Source: Calonectria ilicicola (lineage: Eukaryota > Ascomycota > Sordariomycetes > Hypocreales > Nectriaceae). Taken from it: a DNA stretch of 64,000 nt. Of the stretch, positions 12,283 through 63,994 are shown piece after piece (positions within the stretch are counted from its first letter, which is position 1; every line of letters starts with the position of its first letter). The stretch covers positions 2,294,001-2,358,000 of the forward strand of contig CP085834.1 in NCBI GenBank assembly GCA_020809705.1. The letters are read 5' to 3'. Both the position numbers and the translations under genes were made by a program. Below the pieces are notes generated by a model. The model had not been told where the DNA came from. It did no database searches and was given only the letters and a program-made list of their open reading frames with translations.

Positions 12283-14016
12283 ATGCCTCCAGTATCCACA
12301 GAGTCGAATGGACCTACCGAACGATCCCCTTCTCCTTTGGTTTTCGACGATACTCATAGCCGCATCGCCGACATCGTGAACGAGGCGCTGAGATGGCGAC
12401 AATATCCCCGAAACTTCTGGCTCTACACCATCATCTTTTTTCTTGTGGAGCTTGGCTGCGCGATGCTTTACGCACCAAAGCTGGAGCTGCTGAAGATGGT
12501 CCTGTGCCGAGAGCGTTTCCGGGGTGAAAGAGAGAGATGTTTGAAGTACACAGGGATATATGGATATTGGGTACTAATTAATGATTTGTCGCTTTTGTCG
12601 ACATTCGTCGGTAGGAGATGTGGATTATTGAATACTATCTGGCCATGCGCTGACTGTTCTTAGCATCCGGTATGCACATCGTAGTCGGAATTCTCGCAGA
12701 CAGGCGTGGCAGGCATCTTGCTCTCAAGCTCAACATTCTCGGAATAATCCTATACTGGGGCTTTGTGGCATTTATCGGTAACATTATTCCCCCTTCTAGC
12801 TACGAGGTTCGCTGAAAGATATTGCAGGCCTTGTTGAGGGCATACCTGTATGGTGTTTTTACCTTACACCTTTATTTATTCTCATTGGCGGTGGACCTTG
12901 GGCAACTGAAGCGCTGATCTTTGCTGCCATTAGTAATGATGTGACTGCTCGGCAAAGGTATGCCTTCGCGCTGTCTACTTACGTATCTGAGAATGGCGAT
13001 TAATATATACAGGACTACGGCATTTTCTATTCTGGAAGCCACTCGGGGCATTGCCAACCTCATAGGGCCGGTGCTTGCTACATTGACCATGTCTATTCAT
13101 CTTTCTGTCCCGTTTCTTGCGGCATTTGCTATTTTTGGATCGATCTATATTCCTCTTCGTTTGGTCGCGAATTCTAGTGCCCATGAGGAGCGAGAAAATG
13201 TGTGGGAAGAGGAACAAGGTGCTTATCGCCTGCTTGAGTTTGAGCCGCTGATGCGTAGCTCGGCGTTGAATCACGCTGGCTCGAATGAGAGGCAGCCTTC
13301 GAGAATATTTCAGGGTTCAAAAAGCAGAATATATGCAATTTGTTTCGCCTCTTTCTTCTTGTTTTCTTTTGCAACAACTTCCATTTCGCTTCTCATACCC
13401 TGGGTGGCACTACGATTTGACGTAACCATGGGCATTGTATGTTTCGAATTTCTGTGTCATAATTCCTCTGTTGCCTAACCCCATTATAGGCCGGACTTTT
13501 GCATTCGCTGCGGGCCATTTTCTCCCTTGTTCTTTATTTTATTGCCTTACCCTTGAGTAGCTCTTGGTTAGCGCAAGTATTCGAGTCGGACGCTTCTACG
13601 AAAGATCTTGTTCTATCTACTGGTAGCTCGCTCTTATCCTTGGTAGGTTTTCTGATAATCGGCATTGGACCCAATATTCCAGTTGTTGCGCTTGGATTTG
13701 TCGTAGGTACCTTGGGGTCAAGCATGGCAATCACTTTACGAGCATTTCTTGCGTCAAATGTGGACCCTGGGTTCCTAGGGCGCCTGTTTACTGCCACCTC
13801 AGCAACTGGGACTATTGGCAGTCTTGTCGGGATATTAATATGGAAGGCGATGCTTTCAAGTTCATTTGCCGAATCAACAATGGTCAGATGCTCATTCATA
13901 ATATCAGCTGTATTACTGGCCCCCGAGTTATCTTTTTCGCACCTTATCTAACAAAAATACAGGCTTCATGTGTAGTTATATTTGGCCTCTTATTTCACCT
14001 TCAATCCAAGCGGTAG
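12283..14016 (+). CDS. Major facilitator superfamily transporter
   Basis: A six-exon gene: 12283-12610, 12664-12777, 12828-12957, 13013-13436, 13490-13909 and 13963-14016, giving 489 residues with all phases consistent. After a polar N terminus comes TM1 (NFWLYTIIFFLVELGCAML). The MFS A-type loop GILADRRGRHLAL follows TM2, then VWCFYLTPLFILIGGGPWATEALIF and the TM5-type TTAFSILEATRGIANLIGPVLA. A long charged central loop precedes the second half. It resembles the fungal MFS group that carries a CR-x-x-x motif after TM1, mostly uncharacterised efflux-type carriers. The last exon is my choice: donor 13910 is weak (gtatta), but the acceptor with its CTAAC branch point is strong and completes TM12; without it the protein ends at 13951. 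Lies between the amine oxidase and a transcription factor. Confidence 0.82.
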
Positions 14017-25108: not shown

Positions 25109-26630
25109 CTAGGACCGACTGGACTCCCCGTTTTTCACCGGCTGCTTTTCAGATAAATCATGAGTTGCATTAACCCGTCCGCCATTTGATTCGTCAGTTG
25201 GAATCATTTCGCCTTGGATGTATCCTTGCTCGGCGTCGTGGGCCTCACAGGGTCCGAAAACGTAGGCTCCCTCGCCGTGGACCAAATCGTCGCCCAACAT
25301 CATCTGCTCCTCGCTCATACGCAATGGGATTCGCAGCACGTGCTTGATGAATAGTAGAATAAGCGAGGTCCAGACAACATTCCAGCCAAAAATGAAGCAT
25401 GCACCGGCCATTTGGTAACCGAGCTGCATGCCGTTGCCTGCAACCGCCCCGCCAGGATTGGTCAGGCCAAAAGCAGCACATCCTTCCTTGGTAGCCCAGA
25501 GTCCAGTGCCGAAGCCGCCCACGAAGCCAGCCACCAGATGTGTATGGGTAATGCCAAGGGTGTCGTCAAAGGCTCGCTCAAAGGATTTGAAGCGTTTGGC
25601 AACAACATTCATGGTAAACCACGGGATAGCACCAGAGCCTAGACCGAGCAGGATGGCGCCCCAACCAGCAACAACACCAGCTGCTGGGGTGATGGCAACA
25701 AGACCAGTGATCATGCCTTGCACGGCGCCAGTTACAGATGGTTTCTTGAAGTAGAGCATGTCGCAGACAGTCCAGGTCAAAAGAGAGATGGCGGTGCATA
25801 GATTTGTATTCAGGACGGCAACACCAGCGTCGGCACTAGCAGCATATGGATCGCCACCATTGAAGCCATTCCAGCCAACCCAGAGGATGCCAGCACCAAC
25901 GAGCATTGTTAGCACGTTATTTGGGCGGTTAGCGCTGCGGTCTCTCTCAAGCCGTGGGCCAATCCAGTAACTGCCCACAAACCCAGCCGTCCCGCTCGAG
26001 AGGTGAATCACATAGCCACCGGAGTAGTCAATGACACCAAGCTTGAAGAGGAAGCCTCCGCCCCAAAGTGAAAATGCACCGACCGTGTAAGAGAGAGTCA
26101 ACCACAGCGGAACGTAGATCATCCAGGCGTAAAAGTTCATGCGACCGAGAAACGCCCCAGCTGTGATGACCAGCGTGATTGCGGCGAAGACAAACTGGAA
26201 GTATATCATGGTGGCCAGAGGGAATTGTTGACCAACGCCGATGGCGGGAAGGTAGGACTGCTGAAGCATGGTGTGGATACCGAGGACATTGTTGGGCTTG
26301 CCAACAAAAGGGAGCATCTTCTCGCCAAATGAGGCCTTGTATGCCCACAGAACCCAGCAAACCAGCACGGCAGCGAAGGCGTAGAGCGCCATAAAGGCAC
26401 TGTTAATGGCCCATTTCTTCTTCATGATGCCGGCGTAGAGTACCATGAGTCCAGGGATAGATTGCAGGGCGACAAGGGACGCTGCGGTGAGCTGCCACGC
26501 ATTGTCACCTGTAGATGAGTTGGTCAGCTCGCGAGATTCTCAATGTATAACGATGATAGACATTTAACTGACCACTTCCGACGCCAGATGACGGATCTGG
26601 CGTCCACCATGTGGTTGTGTTGTCAGACAT
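25109..26630 (-). CDS. Ammonium transporter (Amt/Mep family)
   Basis: Two exons, 26630-26573 and 26508-25109 (intron 26572-26509), give 485 residues. The start MSDNTTTWW leads straight into TM1 ([19 protein letters not shown]). The two pore histidines of Amt/Mep channels are in [10 protein letters not shown] and [12 protein letters not shown], and the conserved [10 protein letters not shown] is present. About eleven helices are seen, followed by a cytosolic tail with [21 protein letters not shown], the conserved C-terminal regulatory segment. The protein would import ammonium across the plasma membrane. Members of this family are usually under nitrogen control by GATA factors, but I did not find a convincing cluster of GATA sites near the start, so that remains inference. 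A TATATA-type element lies about 120 bp upstream. Confidence 0.95.
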
Positions 26631-39979: not shown

Positions 39980-42480
39980 GGGTCATTAGTGGGCCTGTGA
40001 TAGCCGGCGTTGGCTCTTATATACAATTTACTAGGGAAACTAAGATAGTGACTGTTTAAGCGTGATACTCCTGCTGCCCTTTTGATGTGTTTTATGCTTA
40101 TATATAGTAATAATAATTATTAAGGTTTTTGGTAATAATAAAGGTTTTTTTTAAGTTATATTTTTTTTTATATAAAGAGGTTTTTTAAATAGTTAAGATT
40201 ATTGTTAAGAAAGAAAAAGTTTATTTTATAATATATTAAAAATAATCTTTTATTATTAATTTATTATATATTATATTTTATTATATTTAAGGTTATTTTT
40301 TTATTAATATATAATATTAAATATATTTTTAAAAAAGTAGAAGGGCTATATATAAATATTAGGATACTTATATTGCTTAGTATTGTAATAGTGGTTAGAT
40401 TAATATTAGGTTATTAAGTTATTTATTAGAAAGAAGTTTCTTAATTATAATTATAATTTTATTAATTATATTATTATATTAAAAAGAGTTTTTATAAGAT
40501 TTAAAAATAATATAATATTTTTATAAAATTTAAGATTATAATTTATAATTATTTTTTTTAAAATATAATATTAAGTTAGTAAGGAAGTTTATTATATTAT
40601 TTAATTTAATATATATAATCTTATATATTATTATTATTATAAAAAGCTTATTAATTAATTTTTTATTAAATAAATAATTAATTAATTAAAAAATAAAAAT
40701 AATTACTTCTTTATTAATCTTTATAATAATAATAATTATATTTCTTATCTTTTTATTATCCCTAAGAGTAGGATTAAGCTATATACCTAATATTATAATA
40801 TCTTTATTTATAATAATATATATAAAATAAACTAATTTAATATATTATTTTTTAATATATATAAAATAATCTTATTAAAATAGATTTTTTATATTATAAT
40901 TACTTTCTTTAATAGTAAGATTAAGGCTTAATATTTATAAGCTTTATATTAATTTATTAAATTAATAAGAAGATTTAATATTCTAGCCCTATAAGCTATT
41001 ATAATTAATTAAAAGCTTACCTTTATAAGGGCTATAATAAAATATCCTTTTATTAATATTATATCTTACTTTTTATACTATTAATATATTAATAAGAATA
41101 TTCTAGCTAGATATAAATAATATTTTCTTAAGATAATTAAAGATTTAGAGACTAGAGTTATATAGTAGGCCTTAATTTTTTAAAAATTTCTTTAAATTTA
41201 AAATAAGATTATAAATAATAATATAATTATTAAATTTATTTTAAATTTAATATTTTTTAAAGATAATAATTATTTACCTTAAATTATTATATATACTTTT
41301 AATATATAAATTAATTTATAAAAGGAAAAGATAATTTATTATTATATTAATTAATATTATTATTTTAATTATTTTATAATCTTAATTATTAAATTACTTT
41401 ATATTATTATTAAAAGAATTATTTTATATAATATAAATAATCTTACTATTATCTTTATAAAGCTAGAAATATTCTAGATTAATTAAATAATAAATATTTA
41501 AAATCTTTAAGTTTAAAAATAATATAAAATATTAATTTTTTTAATATAATCTTTATATATTTTTATATAAAATTATATTTTCTTTATTATAATAAATCTT
41601 ATTAATATTAAAAAGAAGATTATTAAGTAAAAAATATATAAATTAAGATAATTATACCTTAATTATTTTATTTTTATTATATATAATATTTTATATTATT
41701 ATATAATTTAAAGAAAATTAAAAGATAATAAGCTAATTTAATTTTATAAGGTTAATCCTTTTTAATATTAAAATAAGATATTAATATAAGTAAATATATT
41801 TACTTTAAAAGGTCCTTTTAATTCTTTAATTATTAATAAAAAAAGCTAATTAAAAGGGAATCTTAAGCTTAAAAAAGTATTAATATTAATAATTTAAAGT
41901 ATAATCTTATTTTATTTAAGAAAGTTAAGGTTTTTAAGTAAGTTAAGGTAATTGTATTTAATAAAAATACTAAACTTTTACTTTTATTAATATTATAATT
42001 ATTATTATTATTAATTTTAATAATAATAAGAATAATTAAAATATTATTTATAATATTAAGACTTTAATATTTTAAATTAAATAATTTATATAAATTTAAA
42101 ATTATAATATTAAGATTATATTAATAAATTTAAATTTAATTTAAAGATATTTATAATAATAATAATAATAATAATATAAATATATTAAATAATAATAAAA
42201 ATAAATAAAATAATAATAAAATTAATTTTAATAAAATAAAATAATTAATATAAAAGTTAAAAATATTATAATATTAATTAAAAAATAATAATAAAAAAAT
42301 TTATAATTATATTAAAATTATTAACTTATAAATAAATTACAAATAACTTTATATAATATTATTAATTTTAATATTAAAAAAAATAACATTTAATAATATA
42401 AGAATATTAGATTACTGGAAAAGTGGTTAGTTTAGCTATAAAACGCCGGTCTCGGAGGTGGTAGCTAGTCGTGGCAAAGT

Positions 42481-42527
42481 CAGCCACAATTGAGGATGCT
42501 CATTACACAAAGTGGGATGCTAATTAC
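42481..42527 (-). repeat. Right terminal inverted repeat
   Basis: On the minus strand it begins GTAATTAGCATCCCACTTTG and ends in GTGGCTG, mirroring the left end. Confidence 0.85.
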
Positions 42528-43053
42528 ACAGTTCCTTCATTTAAGGATGCACTGAGCGGTGGTGGGTTAAAATAAGTGCGAATGAGAGGAAAACGTGCGG
42601 CGAATCTCCAATAGTGAGAGTGTGCATCGTGATGAAAGGGGGGATGGGACGACTAGCCTACCGGAACTGGGATGGGATCTTGGTGTGATGAGGCAGCATC
42701 TCGGGAAGGACTGCTACTCTTTGAGCGGTGTAGGTGGAGTGTATTTCATGACTGCGATTCCGATGAGTGGATGGGCATTTTTCGTATCAGCTGTAATGGC
42801 ATTTTCTTTCCTCCGAAAGGTCTCTTTCGTATTTCGGGTCCTCATTTGAGAAGGGCATTCCGGTTCAACTGGGGAAGTAGCGACAGCTGGCTCGACTGGG
42901 ATTTTTAATGGGAAGCGGGTAAAATTAAGATTCAAAGTCTGTCCAATGATAATTATTCATTCAACATATTCTAATGTGCAAATGAATTACCGCGTAGAGA
43001 TGGCTCCAGTCTAATCACCAGGTAATGGCAACTGCTCTAGGTCATTTCACCAA
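42528..43053. other. Intergenic, nothing recognised
   Basis: Spacer between the transposon-like block and the P450 3' end. Overlapping short frames around 42595-42910 have no recognisable domain. Confidence 0.45.
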
Positions 43054-44770
43054 TCACACGACAAATTTCCAAGTTACATCTTCCCACCCCAGCCTCCTCT
43101 CAATTCTTGCGCTACATTTCTGGGATCCAAATATCGGCTGCCTCACGCCTGCACCCAAGATTGGATCCTCGGATTTGGGGACATGCACGTTGGCGATCTC
43201 GAACCCTGCCGCGAGAACACCAATAAACCCGAGGTTTTCTGCAAGAGCAAAGTTTCTTCCAGGACACAGATGTTTACCGCCGCCGAATGGAAGATGTGCA
43301 CCGCGACGCCGCTTTTCATCCTGCGGCGTGACGTTGAGAAAGCGCTCTGGTATAAAGGATGAAGCATCGTCTCCCCAAATGGCGTCGACCGTATGGGTTA
43401 CACTGGTGGACCATTGGACGTTAATGCCCTGTTTGAGAAGATAGCTGCGGCCCTGCTTGTCTTTGATAGTCGTGTCCTTCATGACCCGTCGGTTTCCAAC
43501 ATGGTGAACATAGACGCGCAAGACCTCCCAATAGCATGCGTGAAGAAATTTGCACTTATCGACCACCCCTTTGGTAGATAGCGTAGCGATGCGCCCTTCT
43601 ATGCCAGGTGATATGGTGATGATGTCCTCTACCTCGGAACGGACTCTTTGCAGTAGGTTCGTATCGGAAAATATGTGGACAAAGAGCCAGAATAGGGTCG
43701 GAATCGAATTGGTCGTTCCTACCCATGGTACCGATATCTCCTGCGCACCCAAGTCATGATCATCATACCCTTGCTCTCTGAGGAATGCAGCTCTTTTCTT
43801 CATTATCGATGATGCATCCGGTGACTGGTCATGGCCTGCAGTGTAATAGGGCTGTAAGACTTCGCTTAGCTTATTTCGGGCACGAAGGGGCCCCGGAGCA
43901 AGTAGCTGAGGCAAAACACCGAATGACAATTGCGCGACGCCACTATCAAATTCCCTATGCGCTGTAAGAAAATGGGCGGTGAAATCGCATGTCGCTTATC
44001 GCAACGCTTTCTTTACCTCAACAGATCGACATGCTCTGAGGTCAGAGTGCCCTTGCTGCCGAACAGACCTGACAGGGTCGCACCGGCGACCAGATTCCAG
44101 AGCCAATCATTGACGTTGGGGATCGCAATTTTGGAGTCGGATTCGATAGAATTAAGTGTTTGCATCAGCTTTGAAAGAGAAGCGACATTTAATTCGTGCA
44201 GTGGCTCTCCTGTCAAGGTGGCGTGGATGACTTGGATGAGACCCTCGAGTACATGTTTGCGTGCAAGAGTATTTTTTATTTCTTTTCTCAATCCAAACAT
44301 GCCGCCCGAGAATTCCACAAAAAATGGGTCGAATGAGAGATCAGGGCTTTTCAAGGCTGATGCAATCAAATCGAGGGAATTGACGACATACACTTTGCTA
44401 TTGAGCATGGGCAATGTGCAGATTGGCAGCGGGGACTCGTCACTACCAAAAGAAATGTCATCAGAATGGCTAAATCGCCGCTCGGGTCATTCATTGCTGC
44501 CTACTAGAGTCTTTTGTACCAGCTGGTACGCTCCCTGACCATGTTGAAGACATGTCCAACTATTGGTATTCTAGGTTTCAGCAGTGGGGGCTCGCGGACG
44601 TCTAAAGTGAGGGAAATAAGCATTCTCACGAGTACAAAGAACAGAGGTAGGGCCGTAATGGTGGCGAGAAGAAGTGGGGATGATGCTTTCCTGTAGTGGA
44701 GAATCGATCCAGGCACCGAAACGACGTCGTTTTGCCCGAAAGCGACATCTGGTAGCTTGAGAGTTGCCAT
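43054..44770 (-). CDS. Cytochrome P450 (CYP7/CYP8-like fungal type)
   Basis: Three exons, 44770-44505, 44442-44017 and 43954-43054, give 530 residues. A membrane anchor lies near the N terminus (LLLATITALPLFFVLVRML), followed by the proline-rich hinge PPLLKPRIPIVGHVF. The I-helix region reads VPWVGTTNSIPTLFW, without the usual acidic-Thr pair, as in the prostacyclin-synthase/CYP7-like group. The ExxR motif is EVLRV and the heme loop PFGGGKHLCPGRNFA is complete. These traits fit the fungal P450s distantly related to sterol 7/12-hydroxylases. For intron 2 the AG at 43961-43960 would put a stop into the frame, whereas the AG six bases further (43956-43955) restores REFDSGVAQLSFG, so I use the latter. 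Start at MATLKLPDV; no ATG lies upstream in frame. Substrate unknown. Confidence 0.87.
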
Positions 44771-45474: not shown

Positions 45475-47293
45475 ATGAAGACGATGTCGAATCAGGCCCT
45501 TGACGTGCTGAACATGGCATCGGGCCACCCTACTGCAAACGAACCCACCACATCTATGGACCTCGCGCAATGTGGTCCTCTCGAGGCTTCTAAGTTATCC
45601 TTTCTCGACCTCCCTCCGGAGATTCGCAATGCTATCTATCTGGAATATGCCACTACAGAAGGTGGCTATGTCTTCAATGCAGAAACACGAAAGCTACGGG
45701 GAGTCGGGAACGGTGGGCGCACAGAGCCGATCAACAAAGAAATTGGTTTAACCTGTAAACAAGTCTATCAAGAAACACGAGGACTAGGCTTTCGGGCCAA
45801 TGACATCAACTTTTTTACCGCGACTTCCGACAAAATACGAGTTGATGCAGGCATGCTCCAGTCGATTCGGGACGCTCTTACTGGTGTCGCGGTCAACATA
45901 TTGACACTCGGCCAGAGGAGTCGTGATGAAAACCGTCCAGAACACCCCATAGACGCTATTCTTGAAGAGATGGCTCGCGAATATCCTAAAATGAAGCCGC
46001 TCGTAGCAGCGGTCCGCAATGGTGGCGAAGGCTGTGCTTTCGGCCACTCTTTTGGGACTGTGGGTTCATATCAACGAAAAGCACTTTTTCGGGCCATCGA
46101 AATCGCATCTGAGCATGATTACTTCGCGAAATGGAGTAAACTTGCAACTGAAAAGTGTAAAAATATTCTCAAATTGAATGAACTGCTTCCATATTGGCTT
46201 ACCGATATACCGGAATTTGATTGGAGAGGAATGGATGAATTATCTCGGATGATGCCATTAAGCGTTAGGGAGAATTGGAATTATCCCTGGATTAATAGCA
46301 ATGGAAATCGGCATTATACTAGGGGAAAGTACTACCTCTCTGCAGCCTCCCTAGCGCGACAATTTATCTCAAAACTTCCAAAGCCTCTTCGTTTATGCTT
46401 ACGACAGATTCGCCTGCATGAAGATAGCCTAGCCGTGGCTTGTCCCGAAACACATGTCGAGGGGCTGGTTGAATTCTGCCTGGAAAATCCAAATCTCCGC
46501 ATTGAACGACGGGTGGATCTCTGGAGAACTGTCTTCCAAGCATACCCGGTGCACCCGTTGTATGAGACACTATCACCTGAGGTCAAATGGCTAGCTGGTA
46601 GAAATAATCCATTTGGCCCAGGATTGTCATCTGTATTTGCCTCCAACGTCTTTGCAACGTGGGTCATGGAAGCCTTGGAACTGACCCAGGCTGGTATGCC
46701 TGAAGAATCCTTTACCTTGACTTTTTATGGAGGAGAAGCTGATTCGAGGTCGTCTGAAATTTTCCAAAACATTATTCAGCGCGATGCTATAATGCAGTGC
46801 GCCTGGGAGAGGTTTGTGGACGAAGAGCTCGTTGGCGAGGAAGCGAAGCTTTTGAATTACCTGAAGCAAGTTTGCGGTTTATGTAAGTCCAAGGAATCGA
46901 AGAGCTTTCTGGTCTAGTACTAACATTTGCATAGATATAATCGATGGATTTCCTCAGGCTGTCAAGGACATCATTGATGGCTCTAGTTTTATTCGTTGCG
47001 ATTTTGATCTAGGAAATGAGATTTGGGATGTTGAAAAGGAATTTGAGAGATTCATTGATATGGATTTGGAGGATATCATGAAGCTTAGGCTAACCGATCA
47101 ACAAATGGTACAAACAACACCACCACTGCCAACCTGGAACGAACTTCTAGCCGAAAATATCCTACCATCATTTTTCAATGAGTATAATTCGATGCTCACC
47201 TCATTATTTATGGCTGGTATGACAGTCATAGGGACTGTGGGGGATTTACTACAGCAACTACTTCAGAGGATAAACTTACGGGATAACAGTTAG
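45475..47293 (+). CDS. 2EXR/F-box-like domain protein
   Basis: Two exons, 45475-46882 and 46935-47293 (intron 46883-46934), give 588 residues. Residues about 40-60 read SKLSFLDLPPEIRNAIYLEYA, the LPPEIRN-Y/W motif of the fungal 2EXR/F-box-like family, followed by LTCKQVYQETRGLGFRANDINFF, its usual continuation. The rest, with aromatic-rich segments such as LLPYWLTDIPEFDW, is not recognised. Proteins of this kind are very numerous in Pezizomycotina and mostly uncharacterised; an adaptor role in ubiquitination is only inferred. The second exon is in phase (GLY-IIDGF) and ends in a short amphipathic or membrane-like helix (MLTSLFMAGMTVIGTVGDLL). Intact. Confidence 0.8.
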
Positions 47294-52013: not shown

Positions 52014-54824
52014 TCATTGACTCGGACGCACAATCAAAGACTCCCAGCTCTTTGGCGAAAACTGCTCAATCCCAAAATTGTCAATGGCGAACTGAGCAAC
52101 CAGCTTGGGGTATTTCTGAAACATTTCTTCGTAATCCGTGGTCCGCGTCTTTTGAAAGAGCCTTGCTCGAGCCTCAACCAGTTCCTTCGACTTGCAGTAG
52201 AGAAACAGATGCTTGACGGTATGCCCCTCGCTGACGCAATGGGGGCAACTAAATCTGCTTTCCCTGCCAATCGAATACAGAAACGATCGGAGTCGAATGC
52301 GGCCAGATCGGCAGTGAAGCAGCATTGTGCACTGCTTTCGAGTCAGCTTCTTGTAATACTTGAGACTCCGGCGTCCCCAGCTCTCTTTTAGCGCAAGCGC
52401 TCCCATTTGAGAGGACCCACTACTCATGTCTGTCCGATAATCTTCCCAATCATCGGCCATGCGCGAATTCAAACTCGTAATGGACGCCTTGTCGATGGCT
52501 TTACAACGGCGAGCGCGATCCTTCCACAGGATTGCGGCCTGCTCCTTGCCGTGTATCTCAACTAAGCGGGCCATGGCCTTTTCTCTCAGGACTTTGGCGT
52601 CTTCGTCGAGCTTTGTATACGGGTGGCGGCGAAGCCTCCACGCGTCCAAACACTTCTCTCGGTGCATCCTGAGAGCCAGGGCGTGAGCTTCGTTTTTGGC
52701 GTGGTGAGCGACGGTCTTTTCTTGGAGCAAGTCTTTAATGGGATACAGATGGAGCTCTTTTCGAAGAAGGACCCGAGGAGCCTGCCAAAGAGCCCCAGAA
52801 ATCTTGACTAGGCAGTCGTTTTGTAACCGAGAGAGCACATCAACCTCCGGTTGGTGTATCTTTCCCTGTAGCAACGTCCCCGTCGAGTGATAAAACCAAG
52901 CAGCACTGGCATAAGACATGATGGATTGAATGTAAGCTAGATACATCTGCCTCATCTGGGGCAGGTTAGGGCCCCAGGTCGGCCCCGACATGGCCAATAG
53001 CAGTCTTATCTTTTTATTGACCTTGGCTTTGATCATTTCGACATGATACTTCCATGACAGCTTGTTGTCAACAAGGACACCCAGAACCTTCACATAAGGG
53101 TGTTCAAACAACTTTTCATCAGGAGGAAGGCCTTCGATATTGGGGCGCGCTTTGATGATTTTACCGCGGTCGCTCTGGCTTAAGAAGTGCAGCAAGCTGT
53201 ATTTGTGTGGTGCAAAGCTCACGCCATTGGCATTGGCCCACTCAATCAAACTGTCATGGACCACCCTGAGCTGCCTGCAATTCTTCTCCCAGCTATCAGA
53301 ACGCACCATGATGTAGGTATCGTCGACAAAGGCTAGTAGAAGCGTCGCTGGGCCGGAGAAGAACAGCTCTTCGGTCAGGGGGGCAGCAAAGAAGAGGAAA
53401 AGAAGAGGAGAAAGGCAGCTTCCTTGAGGGATTCCACCGTTCTCGTAGAAGATTTCAGCGTCATGGCCGGGGATCTCGACGGCTGTGAGACGGTCACAGA
53501 GGAAAGACCAGATGTACTTTATAATGTAGCCCGGAACTCCTCGTTTAACCAAGGATTGTAGCAACACTTGGCGATCGACACGCGAGAAGGCACCGGAAAT
53601 ATCCAAGCCCATCATGCTAACCTTGTTGTTGGAGCCGTGAGACCATCCGGTGTAAACAAAATTGCTAATGGTCTGGAGAGCCATGGCGGTGGATCTACCA
53701 GACAAGCCTCCAAACTGGGTCGCTGGAAGAATGTGCCTGTTGAAGAGAGACGACATTCTTTTGATATATCTTTTAATCCGCTCGCACCATATCTTCTCGT
53801 AGAGTTTTCCAATGGTGGAAATCAGCGCAATAGGTCGGTAGGCCTTGGGGTCATCAGGCTTTTTGCCTTCCTTGGGAAACAAGATGGTGCGGGATAATTT
53901 GAAGTAGGAGGGATGATGTGAGAGACGCATACAGGCCATGAACAAGTCTTCAAGGTAAGGGGCGATCTCCTCAACAGCCATTTTGAGAGCTTCGTTTCCA
54001 ATGCAGTCAATGCCAGATGATTTGCGATTGGGAAGCTCCTGGATTAATTTGTAGATCTCCCCCTTGCTTTCAGGGTCATTTGGATCCCCTCGAGCTATTA
54101 AATCGTCGGGGCGAATGACCAGATTGAGATTGTCAGGGAGTTGTGGACGAACCGATTCCGTCTGACTCGTCATCCCTGGTCCATAATTAGCGTCCATAAA
54201 CATGGAGGCCTTTTCTTGACCGGTTGTGCCGCGTCTTCCCATGTAGTTGAAGTCAGGGCTGTAAGGTATGTTCATGGGCTTGACGCGACGCTTCATGCAG
54301 GCTGCAAAGCTCCACATTCTGTTAGGATCTTCCATGGTGGTGGAGCTAACGGCTTCTCTAAACGAGGTCGGGCCCTCGGACGACTCGGGCGGGGGAGCTG
54401 GCCTGAAGGGGTTTGCGGTGGGAACGCACTCCTTTACCGCATGGATGAGTACTTGGACGATAGCTGCCAGGTGCTTGTCGGTACCGGCATGAGTGGTGAG
54501 ATCAGGGACAGGGAGGGCTTCCAGACCGGCCTTGACCATCTGGCGAAACTTTGGTTGGTCTGCTTTGTGCCACAGGAAACGGATGCCGAGGATTCGATTG
54601 GGACAAAGGTTAAGTCTTGTTTGGCAAAGTCGATGGTCACCTTCGAATCCCTCGACGGGAATAGCTGACCAGTCGATAAGGCGAGGGGACAGCAACTTGC
54701 TTAGGAAGATGAGGTCAAGCGTAGACCTTACTTCACAGTCGGGATTTGCTGCTACCTTCGGCCAGAATCCTAGCGGCTCTCTCGGCGGCGGTGATGTAGC
54801 TTCTGACTGCGATGGGTGCTGAGA
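52014..54824 (-). mobile_element. Non-LTR retrotransposon (LINE, Tad1-like) ORF2, 5'-truncated
   Basis: An open frame of over 900 codons, read from just after a TAA at 54827-54825 to the stop at 52014. It begins inside the C terminus of an apurinic-type endonuclease domain (VRSTLDLIFLSKLL). The reverse transcriptase follows: KSSGIDCIGNEALKM, KAYRPIALISTIGKLYEKI, QFGGLSGRSTAMAL, GIPQGSCLSPLLFLFF, and the catalytic FVDDTYIMV box. A long connecting region and a C-terminal CCHC finger (CPHCVSEGHTVKHLFLYC) match fungal LINEs of the Tad1/CgT1 kind. No ORF1 and no full endonuclease are present and no ATG opens the frame, so this is a typical 5'-truncated insertion. Unusually, it has no stop codons over 2.8 kb although the genome shows RIP-like decay elsewhere, so the insertion is recent or lies outside RIP. 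Confidence 0.88.
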
Positions 54825-62067: not shown

Positions 62068-63826
62068 GTTACCTACAAGAACCAAGTTGTTGATTTCCAC
62101 AGAACCATGTAAATTCTAGTTATCATAGCCAACTGCAATCCTATGCCTAAGGATATGGAAGGCTTCTTGACGAAACAAAGCTGGTGGCTTAGGGTTGGAT
62201 GGACTAGTTTGGTTATAGTTCTAGGGGGAACCTTTGTTATCTTAAGATCTTATGCTATACTCTACTACTTTTAGCAAAGATCTAATATATTTAAGAGTGA
62301 TTAATTATTATATATTTAGTATAATATTATTATATGAGATTAGATGCTATAATTTATTATTATTTACTTGGTTGTTATTTATATTGTAATTAGATTGTAG
62401 GTTATGTTTATGGCTGCTATGGCTACTGTAATGCTCAAAATAACTGGAGCTAGGATTTATAATATAGCTATTCTTTTTATATCTAGGGTATTAGGCTCAA
62501 GCCTGTTAAATATCTTGCCTGTCGCGCTCAAACAGTGCACACGCAGCTTGACAGGTTCGGTTTACCTGGTAATCAACGTAGACATCAACACAGTCAATTT
62601 CATAAATACCTGTCCCACCCTCATGTCTGCCCCGGACTCCTCCGTCTCAACTAATTGAAAGCAAACATCAAAGATGGTATCGCTTCCCTAACCATGCTCC
62701 AAGTGCCCCAGTGCTATGCAATTCGGGGTGTCTTTGAAAATATTCACACAATCATCAAGAGACCTGCTATCCACTGTCCTAAGATCATTACTATCATTTA
62801 TTATATCTACTACATCACAGTACTAACCTATTAATAGACCAAACAGCATACTATACCCAGAGCAAGTCAGCATGACCCATAACATTATTTTTGAAGTTAC
62901 ATTTGACTCGATTATGTCCGACGCAATCGTAAATTTAATTTATCCCCAAGGAAGGAATTTTAGATTTCGTGATGGCCAATGTAGCGACACAATGTATTGT
63001 CTATAGAGGCAAGTATCCTCCCCTTTGGGAGGTAGCACTGACTTGGTCACCCAGGTAGCACTATGATTATTGTTAAATAACTAGCCGATAGGCTGTACCC
63101 TTTACGCTTGAGGTGAAACTTTTCAATGATCATGACAAAGCTCTCTTGCTAACCTTCTTGTGACCCGAGTATAGGAATGGTTTCCCTCACGAGAAAGGCA
63201 TAATCCACAATATCACCCAGACAACCTCTCACAGAAGATGTTGTTACTCCGGTAGTCGTCGCCAAAATGGTAGTTGTTGTGGTCAAGGTCGCTGACGAGT
63301 TTGTGAGAAAAATCGAATATTAAAAATTAAATATCGAATAAGCCCCCTGTAGCAATAATTATTGTGGTGGTGGGGTAGGTTTAGTATCTTACTTTTGGTA
63401 CCCTAAGCGCTATTGCTCTACCGCTTCTTTCCTTCTTCCGTTTGGAATGACAAAAATGGAGGCCAATATTTGGTAGACAAGTTCTTGACGGGATCCCGTA
63501 TTTTCTAAGAGCTATGGCCGTATGTGCTAGACCGAGCGTGGTAACGCACTTATCACATGAGGCAGAGAGCACCCGTTTTGGGGCGGTCAGATTTATAATA
63601 TCCCTTGCACTTTATAATACCATCGATGATCAAACAATAGTGTTGCGGAACTTGTAAATATCTAGCTAATTCATTTCCTCCAATTAACACAATCATCAGC
63701 ATTTCACGCGTCTAGAGTAATTGCAAGCCAAGCCCCACACCAAGATGGGGAATTGTCCCCGCCAAGGGCTAGGGCACCGTTCAGACTAATAATGTCAATT
63801 TAGCTCGCTGCAAAACAATGCAACAA
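62068..63826. other. Intergenic, partly AT-rich
   Basis: No supported gene over about 1.75 kb. The part at 62260-62470 is strongly AT-biased, possibly a small mutated repeat remnant. Short frames elsewhere have no domain. Confidence 0.45.
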
Positions 63827-63953
63827 AGCAATTTGGCGCAGTGGAAGCGCGGTAAGTTTACACGTCACTGAGCACTCATCAATGACTCAATTCTAACTTG
63901 CCTTAGCCGGGCTCATAACCCGGAGGTCGCACGATCGAAACGTGCAATTGCTA
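63827..63953 (+). tRNA. Initiator tRNA-Met (CAU) with 55-nt GT-AG insertion between D arm and anticodon stem
   Basis: Two blocks, 63827-63851 and 63907-63953, form an initiator tRNA. Acceptor AGCAATT pairs perfectly with AATTGCT; D arm GCGC-AGTGGAA-GCGC; anticodon arm CCGGG-CTCATAA-CCCGG with the initiator's three G-C pairs and anticodon CAT; variable AGGTC; T arm GCACG-ATCGAAA-CGTGC with the eukaryotic initiator's A54/A60 pattern (ATCGAAA rather than TTCGA); discriminator A. Between position 26 and 27 lies a 55-nt insertion, 63852-63906, that begins GTAAGT and ends TTAG with TTCTAAC before it. That is a spliceosomal-type intron, and it is not at the canonical 37/38 position cut by the tRNA endonuclease. 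A and B boxes are both intact. A T15 run follows. It may be functional and spliced unusually, or a dead copy. Confidence 0.9.
63852..63906 (+). other. Spliceosomal-type intron inside tRNA-iMet gene
   Basis: 55 nt: donor GTAAGT, branch-like TTCTAAC at 63891-63897, acceptor CCTTAG. Length and signals equal those of the protein-gene introns in this window. Removing it restores an exact tRNA. Confidence 0.75.
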
Positions 63954-63979: not shown

Positions 63980-63994
63980 TTTTTTTTTTTTTTT
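63980..63994 (+). terminator. Pol III terminator after tRNA-iMet
   Basis: Fifteen consecutive T, starting 26 nt after the tRNA 3' end. Confidence 0.75.

Follow-up and report, generated by a model that had tools for sequence, protein, structure and literature searches.

mRNA-type introns in the initiator tRNA genes of the fungus Calonectria ilicicola

Near the end of the 64,000-nucleotide stretch of Calonectria ilicicola DNA analysed here (the window) lies an initiator tRNA-Met (iMet) gene that is interrupted by a GT-AG intron between tRNA positions 26 and 27. It is one of nine iMet genes found in the genome, all of which carry an intron at this site, and the sequences make it very probable that the intron is removed by the spliceosome from a predicted RNA polymerase III (Pol III) transcript. 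By current teaching, an mRNA-type intron in a tRNA should not occur. It is also probable, with somewhat less confidence, that this fungus derives all its cytosolic iMet from Pol III transcripts with one or two mRNA-type introns, in which case the spliceosome, itself dependent on a spliced U6 RNA, would gate the whole of translation initiation.

Structure of the window gene

When nucleotides 63852-63906 are removed, the plus-strand blocks 63827-63851 and 63907-63953 form a complete initiator tRNA-Met, as read directly from re-extracted coordinates. Exon 1 (63827-63851, plus strand; AGCAATTTGGCGCAGTGGAAGCGCG) holds tRNA positions 1-26, comprising the 5′ strand of the acceptor stem, the D arm and G26, and its letters are the same in all nine genomic copies. 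An intact A box, read directly 5′ of the intron at about tRNA positions 8-19, occupies 63834-63845 on the plus strand, a placement which we take from general knowledge of tRNA genes. Exon 2 (63907-63953, plus strand; CCGGGCTCATAACCCGGAGGTCGCACGATCGAAACGTGCAATTGCTA) holds positions 27-73, with the anticodon arm and its CAT, the variable loop, the T arm with ATCGAAA, the 3′ strand of the acceptor stem and the discriminator A. Within it, CGATCGAAAC (63932-63941, plus strand) is intact on direct reading and is presumably the B box, a role that we assign from general knowledge.

All stems of the joined tRNA are paired throughout (acceptor 7 bp, D 4 bp, anticodon 5 bp and T 5 bp), and the exons show A1:U72, A54 and A60 in the T loop, and three G:C pairs at 29-31:39-41, again by direct reading. 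These bases are marks of the eukaryotic cytosolic initiator tRNA-Met, and by anticodon, cloverleaf and marker bases the predicted product of the gene is such a tRNA. The preliminary description of this DNA had held that the iMet is complete only without 63852-63906, and its coordinates, stems, CAT anticodon, ATCGAAA and discriminator A proved correct to the base.

The intron (63852-63906, plus strand, 55 nt) separates the D arm from the anticodon arm, its 26/27 placement resting on tRNA numbering by direct reading. The insert reads GTAAGT...TTCTAAC...TTAG. Its 5′ splice site is GTAAGT at 63852-63857 (plus strand; from a comparison of signals in ten iMet introns), the branch-site motif CTAAC lies at 63893-63897 (plus strand) with the predicted branch A at 63896, 10 nt from the intron end, and the 3′ splice site TAG is read directly at 63904-63906 (plus strand). 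The signals previously noted in the insert (GTAAGT, CTAAC and TTAG) are therefore present, and their kind is kept in all ten iMet introns described below.

A scan for GTAWGY...CTAAC...AG gave five start positions in the window, one of them the iMet intron, whereas 60 simulated windows averaged 0.4 and never exceeded 4. Of the stretches of 50-58 nt that run from GT to AG, of which the window has 3686 with overlaps counted apart, seven (0.19%) have GTAWGY and a placed CTAAC. Two coding introns have the same layout, one of 53 nt at 13437-13489 (GTATGT, CTAAC, TAG) and one of 52 nt at 46883-46934 (GTAAGT, TACTAAC, TAG), and in both cases removal joins otherwise broken open frames; having been chosen by their signature, they prove that such introns exist here, not how frequent they are. 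The one mRNA intron located through homology, independently of the signature, the 64-nt intron of an ammonium transporter gene (26509-26572), has GTCAGT and CTGAC, weaker signals than those of the iMet introns, so mRNA introns here need not carry signals as strong. In this sample of three, the layout of the iMet intron is shared by the two signature-picked introns, the third being similar but weaker. The earlier remark that the insert resembles the mRNA introns of this DNA accordingly holds for the first two and only in part for the ammonium transporter intron.

The ammonium transporter protein is closest to that of Ilyonectria robusta (88% over 98% of the query), Ilyonectria being a genus of Nectriaceae, and matches Neonectria ditissima at 90% over 73% of the query, as would suit a Nectriaceae-like ascomycete. 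Elsewhere in the window, 40001-44000 is AT-rich (GC 0.257, compared to 0.46 and 0.45 in the adjoining 4-kb bins), and a 936-codon open frame on the minus strand (52014-54824) has a reverse transcriptase domain (PF00078) and is likely a retroelement.

Nine interrupted copies in the genome

The genome searched comprises 69.9 Mb in 12 contigs. Queried with the joined tRNA, it gave eight matches to exon 2 (seven at 100% and one at 98%) and three to exon 1, and no full-length match. Nine loci were assembled from an exact search with the 5′ half and a pattern search with the 3′ half: C1:2070403, C2:4975728, C2:6271709, C4:4364279, C7:104771, C7:172052, C7:4359097, C10:2357840 (the window gene) and C11:498984. 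At all nine, a GT-AG insert of 52-55 nt breaks the tRNA at 26/27, which answers the call in the preliminary description for a count of the iMet genes that carry the insertion. One copy, C2:4975728 (L029), has a second GT-AG insert of 54 nt (GTAAGC...CTAAC...GAG) at 46/47 in the variable loop, and the removal of both inserts yields the same tRNA as in the other copies.

Intact intronless iMet genes elsewhere, together with a lack of spliced reads from this locus, had been named as the finding that would mark the window copy as a pseudogene. A 30-base pattern across the junction found no contiguous junction in the genome at up to three mismatches. The 3′ half pattern, also at up to three mismatches, matched eight contiguous copies, all exact and all belonging to genes with the interruption; the split copy C2:4975728 makes the ninth. 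The 5′ half at up to two mismatches matched ten times, at the nine iMet genes and at one further gene, called by ARAGORN as tRNA-Arg(CCG) with an intron of 10 nt in the anticodon loop. Within the mismatch limits searched, each initiator gene found has the interruption. The earlier argument, that the cell depends on this splicing if this is its only type of initiator gene, would hence apply to the assembly as searched.

Such genes are poorly served by tRNA finders. Neither ARAGORN in its default mode nor Rfam searched at gathering scores saw the iMet gene in the window; both called a tRNA-Arg alone. Once the inserts are taken out, ARAGORN returns tRNA-Met(cat) for nine of nine copies; with the inserts kept, it calls none of them in default mode, and in intron mode it miscalls seven of the nine as Val, His, Arg or Pyl with false anticodon-loop introns, which suggests that similar miscalls stand in public tRNA lists.

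We also scanned for interrupted tRNAs blindly, by dropping each GTRNG...CTRAC...AG segment of 45-80 nt and asking ARAGORN for a tRNA across the join. Of 58 candidates tested in the whole window, this split scan returned a single one, the iMet gene. As the iMet site is moreover interrupted in all nine copies, the window gene is not a chance match. The scan recovers eight of the nine iMet loci, C2:4975728 needing two removals. At 65 other loci it tested 65 candidates and gave two matches, both overlapping stretches of iMet genes, so that no tRNA other than iMet was returned in the remaining sequence given to it. A genome-wide pattern of CTAAC..AG..GGTTCRANNCC had 38 matches, compared to 39 for its backward control; this search covers short introns with CTAAC branch sites in tRNAs with GGTTCRANNCC B boxes. 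Split scanning of 20 stretches taken from it (17 spanning the 18 non-repeat matches, and three repeat copies) tested ten candidates and gave no tRNA. About 20 of the 38 matches, together with L119, L120 and L121, belong to one repeat that is dispersed and contains a B box like that of a tRNA (CTAACTAATC...GGTTCGAACCC); it may be a tRNA-derived SINE. Neither the iMet 5′ half followed by a 5′ splice site nor the 3′ half pattern had a match in collections of viral, bacterial and archaeal contigs.

The ten iMet introns (nine at 26/27 and one at 46/47) all keep GTAWGY, CTAAC and AG. Their 5′ splice site is GTAAGT, GTATGT or GTAAGC, and the branch A of CTAAC lies 9-11 nt before the intron end in every one of them. 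GT...AG ends, a fungal 5′ splice site, a branch motif and its proper spacing, the features of U2-type introns, are thus found in ten of ten.

Predicted transcription and splicing, and alternative explanations

The A and B boxes are whole and lie in the iMet exons (direct reading), and a run of at least six T begins 8-30 nt 3′ of the tRNA in all nine copies, compared to 1.2% of window positions that have such a run within 30 nt. In the window gene this is a run of 15 T on the plus strand (63980-63994), a likely Pol III terminator that begins 27 nt past the tRNA end. The genes have the features of type 2 Pol III genes (A box, B box and T-run terminator). Given the intact boxes and the T-runs 3′ of all nine copies, the iMet precursor is likely made by Pol III.

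An alternative, which we hold to be unlikely and which fares best of those considered, is that another polymerase makes the precursor and that the spliceosome still splices it. The mRNA-type signals would be in keeping with this, and so would an upstream element, CCAAGGGCTAGGGCA (63762-63776, plus strand), that is common to five of the nine copies (exact in three, with up to three mismatches in two more) and starts 53-65 nt upstream of these genes; in 40 control tRNA loci, the lone match at up to three mismatches (L066) is more than 300 nt from its tRNA. Against it stand the intact boxes and the T-runs just described. Such a change would alter the polymerase and not the main claim, since the spliceosome would still be needed.

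It is less probable still that the nine copies are a dead, duplicated pseudogene family whose real counterpart is intronless and either outside the assembly or diverged. An assembly could miss a locus, our searches reach two to three mismatches, and the acceptor pair is broken in one copy, but the 69.9-Mb, 12-contig assembly yields no intronless junction and the splice signals are kept in all ten introns. The exons, moreover, have hardly changed while the introns and flanks have diverged. Once spliced, eight of the nine copies are the same, and the ninth, C7:4359097, differs by one acceptor-stem base, which breaks a pair and may make this copy weak. Intron cores, taken from the 5′ splice site to the branch motif, have a mean pairwise identity of 0.42 compared to 0.35 when shuffled, with 31 of the 36 pairs inside the 95% limit of the shuffles, and the 60-nt flanks have a mean identity of 0.47 upstream and 0.36 downstream. 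Near-constant exons amid diverged introns and flanks point to purifying selection or exon-only homogenisation and not to decay. Within the mismatch limits, we found neither the decayed tRNA body nor the intact copies elsewhere by which tRNA pseudogenes are recognised, and we reject this explanation. Where the preliminary description had left a choice between the spliceosome and a dead copy, the interruption of nine out of nine copies with near-constant exons favours the spliceosome. The spliceosomal reading has its own limits, in that an iMet gene could lie outside the assembly or beyond the mismatch limits, and the list of tRNAs from the RF00005 search covers the 63 of 2542 candidates that were scored, 44 of which we examined.

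The same divergence bears on the age of the introns. They share one site, yet most of their interiors are no longer similar, so the intron probably predates the dispersal of the nine iMet copies. Five of the 36 core pairs are above the shuffle limit, three of them among C4, C7:172052 and C11; some copies would therefore be young.

Very unlikely, too, is ectopic cutting of the introns by Sen, the tRNA splicing endonuclease, as it occurs in the red alga Cyanidioschyzon merolae or in archaea. In passages of PMC3978253, tRNA introns of C. merolae are described as lying outside 37/38, sometimes several per gene, and these ectopic introns are discussed as bulge-helix-bulge mediated, so that ectopic introns tied to such processing exist elsewhere. 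Sen is also to be expected here, given the anticodon-loop introns in other tRNAs of this genome. Of the 44 tRNA genes examined, ARAGORN's default mode called 40, including L086 without anticodon identity; in intron mode, short anticodon-loop introns appear in L086, L099 and L100. Calls for the remaining four, two Arg(TCT), one Lys(TTT) and an elongator Met(CAT), came from intron mode alone; the Met insert is by eye a 37/38 intron. A second 100-nt tRNA match with the same score lies at C9:1908132. By sequence, then, an elongator Met gene has a classical intron and the initiator gene the mRNA type.

None of the iMet introns is at 37/38, the sites being 26/27 in nine of nine copies and 46/47 in one, and a simple strict test found the four-pair central helix of a bulge-helix-bulge at none of the ten junctions, where one to three of the four pairs form. 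An alignment of the nine 26/27 introns has fully conserved splice signals and little besides, and it yields no consensus RNA structure. To our knowledge, Sen does not read GT, CTAAC and AG. We therefore reject a Sen-type ectopic intron. We reject self-splicing introns of group I or II as extremely unlikely: 52-55 nt is far too short for them, no structure is conserved, and the window has no Rfam match beyond the tRNA-Arg at gathering scores. The literature does have a group I intron within an initiator tRNA of a cyanobacterium.

For spliceosomal removal, we propose the following route. The A box of exon 1 and the B box of exon 2 would serve TFIIIC and Pol III; GTAWGY, CTAAC and AG would be recognised by the spliceosome, which would join the exons by the lariat route; and the tRNA ends and modifications would be completed afterwards, as in other tRNAs. 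Neither intron site, 26/27 or the 46/47 of the one copy with two introns, interrupts a helix, which leaves the anticodon and T arms free to pair before splicing. In predicted minimum-energy folds of the unspliced RNAs, these two arms are present in nine of nine cases and the D arm in six of nine; such folds give limited guidance, since the program used does not return the full cloverleaf even of the spliced tRNA. In some copies, the 5′ splice site can be seen by eye to pair with sequence past the branch motif. It speaks against the proposed route that Pol III transcripts are without the m7G cap, which normally aids recognition of the first intron. The introns may persist through drift or through a regulatory use.

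Place among known introns of small RNA genes

If this reading is true, the tRNA that starts all proteins belongs to the spliceosome, and the health of the spliceosome is coupled to translation initiation. Short, likely uncapped Pol III transcripts would then be obligate spliceosome substrates beyond U6. With ten introns, this one tRNA family also offers material on how structured RNAs gain introns, for which reverse splicing may be a route.

The genes further expose a blind spot of annotation. Because tRNA finders do not search for mRNA-type introns, the trait may be lineage-wide and have been overlooked. In the parts of PMC8450103 that concern introns, tRNAscan-SE 2.0 is said to check archaeal candidates for non-canonical introns by bulge-helix-bulge models, and eukaryotic tRNA genes are described as limited to one intron. 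PMC5832005 states, in the passages concerned, that by 2017 introns were known to be common in just two small structured RNAs, U3 and U6, and those passages name no tRNA with such an intron. The letters 'spliceosom' do not occur in the main text of the tRNA intron review PMC4090602, and the relevant portion of a 2026 review (PMC13149111) treats tRNA splicing as spliceosome-independent. Among the titles and abstract openings returned by full-text searches of an open-licence library, we found no report of a spliceosome-spliced nuclear tRNA.

U6 had been put forward as a precedent for mRNA-type introns in a Pol III gene, and this genome bears the comparison out. Scoring 47 of 4404 candidates gave two U6 genes, at G000:C1:6580493-6580547 (L059) and G000:C3:884235-884292 (L060), and by direct reading both carry an mRNA-type intron. 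Both introns read GTAAGT...CTAAC...CAG, one immediately 5′ of ACAGAGA and the other a little 3′ of it, and within each lies a B box like that of tRNAs (GGTTCGAATCC or GGTTCGATTCC). A search for an uninterrupted U6, at up to three mismatches, matched one intron-bearing copy and nothing else. The 5S genes, by comparison, are unbroken 120-nt matches in all 47 cases scored (of 3097 candidates).

Several known systems resemble the iMet genes in part. Classical nuclear pre-tRNA introns likewise lie inside a nuclear tRNA gene, but they have the 37/38 site and a bulge-helix-bulge and are cut by Sen, whereas the iMet introns have another site and mRNA splice signals. The ectopic tRNA introns of C. merolae and of the Guillardia theta nucleomorph lie outside 37/38, as in iMet here; unlike in C. 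merolae, no bulge-helix-bulge was found at the iMet junctions, and mRNA splice signals are conserved instead. Introns of fungal U3 snoRNA are also spliceosomal introns in a structured small RNA, with a different host RNA.

The closest likeness is to the U6 introns of Schizosaccharomyces pombe and other fungi, which are short mRNA-type introns in a small, structured RNA made by Pol III. For S. pombe U6, passages of PMC10484740 describe an mRNA-type intron and cite work on splicing mutants and on a B box inside the intron. The iMet genes differ in that the host is a tRNA, that the promoter boxes are exonic, and that all nine copies found have one common intron site, with two introns in one copy. 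On this reading, mRNA-type introns, already familiar from small genes transcribed by Pol III, here have a tRNA as their host RNA.
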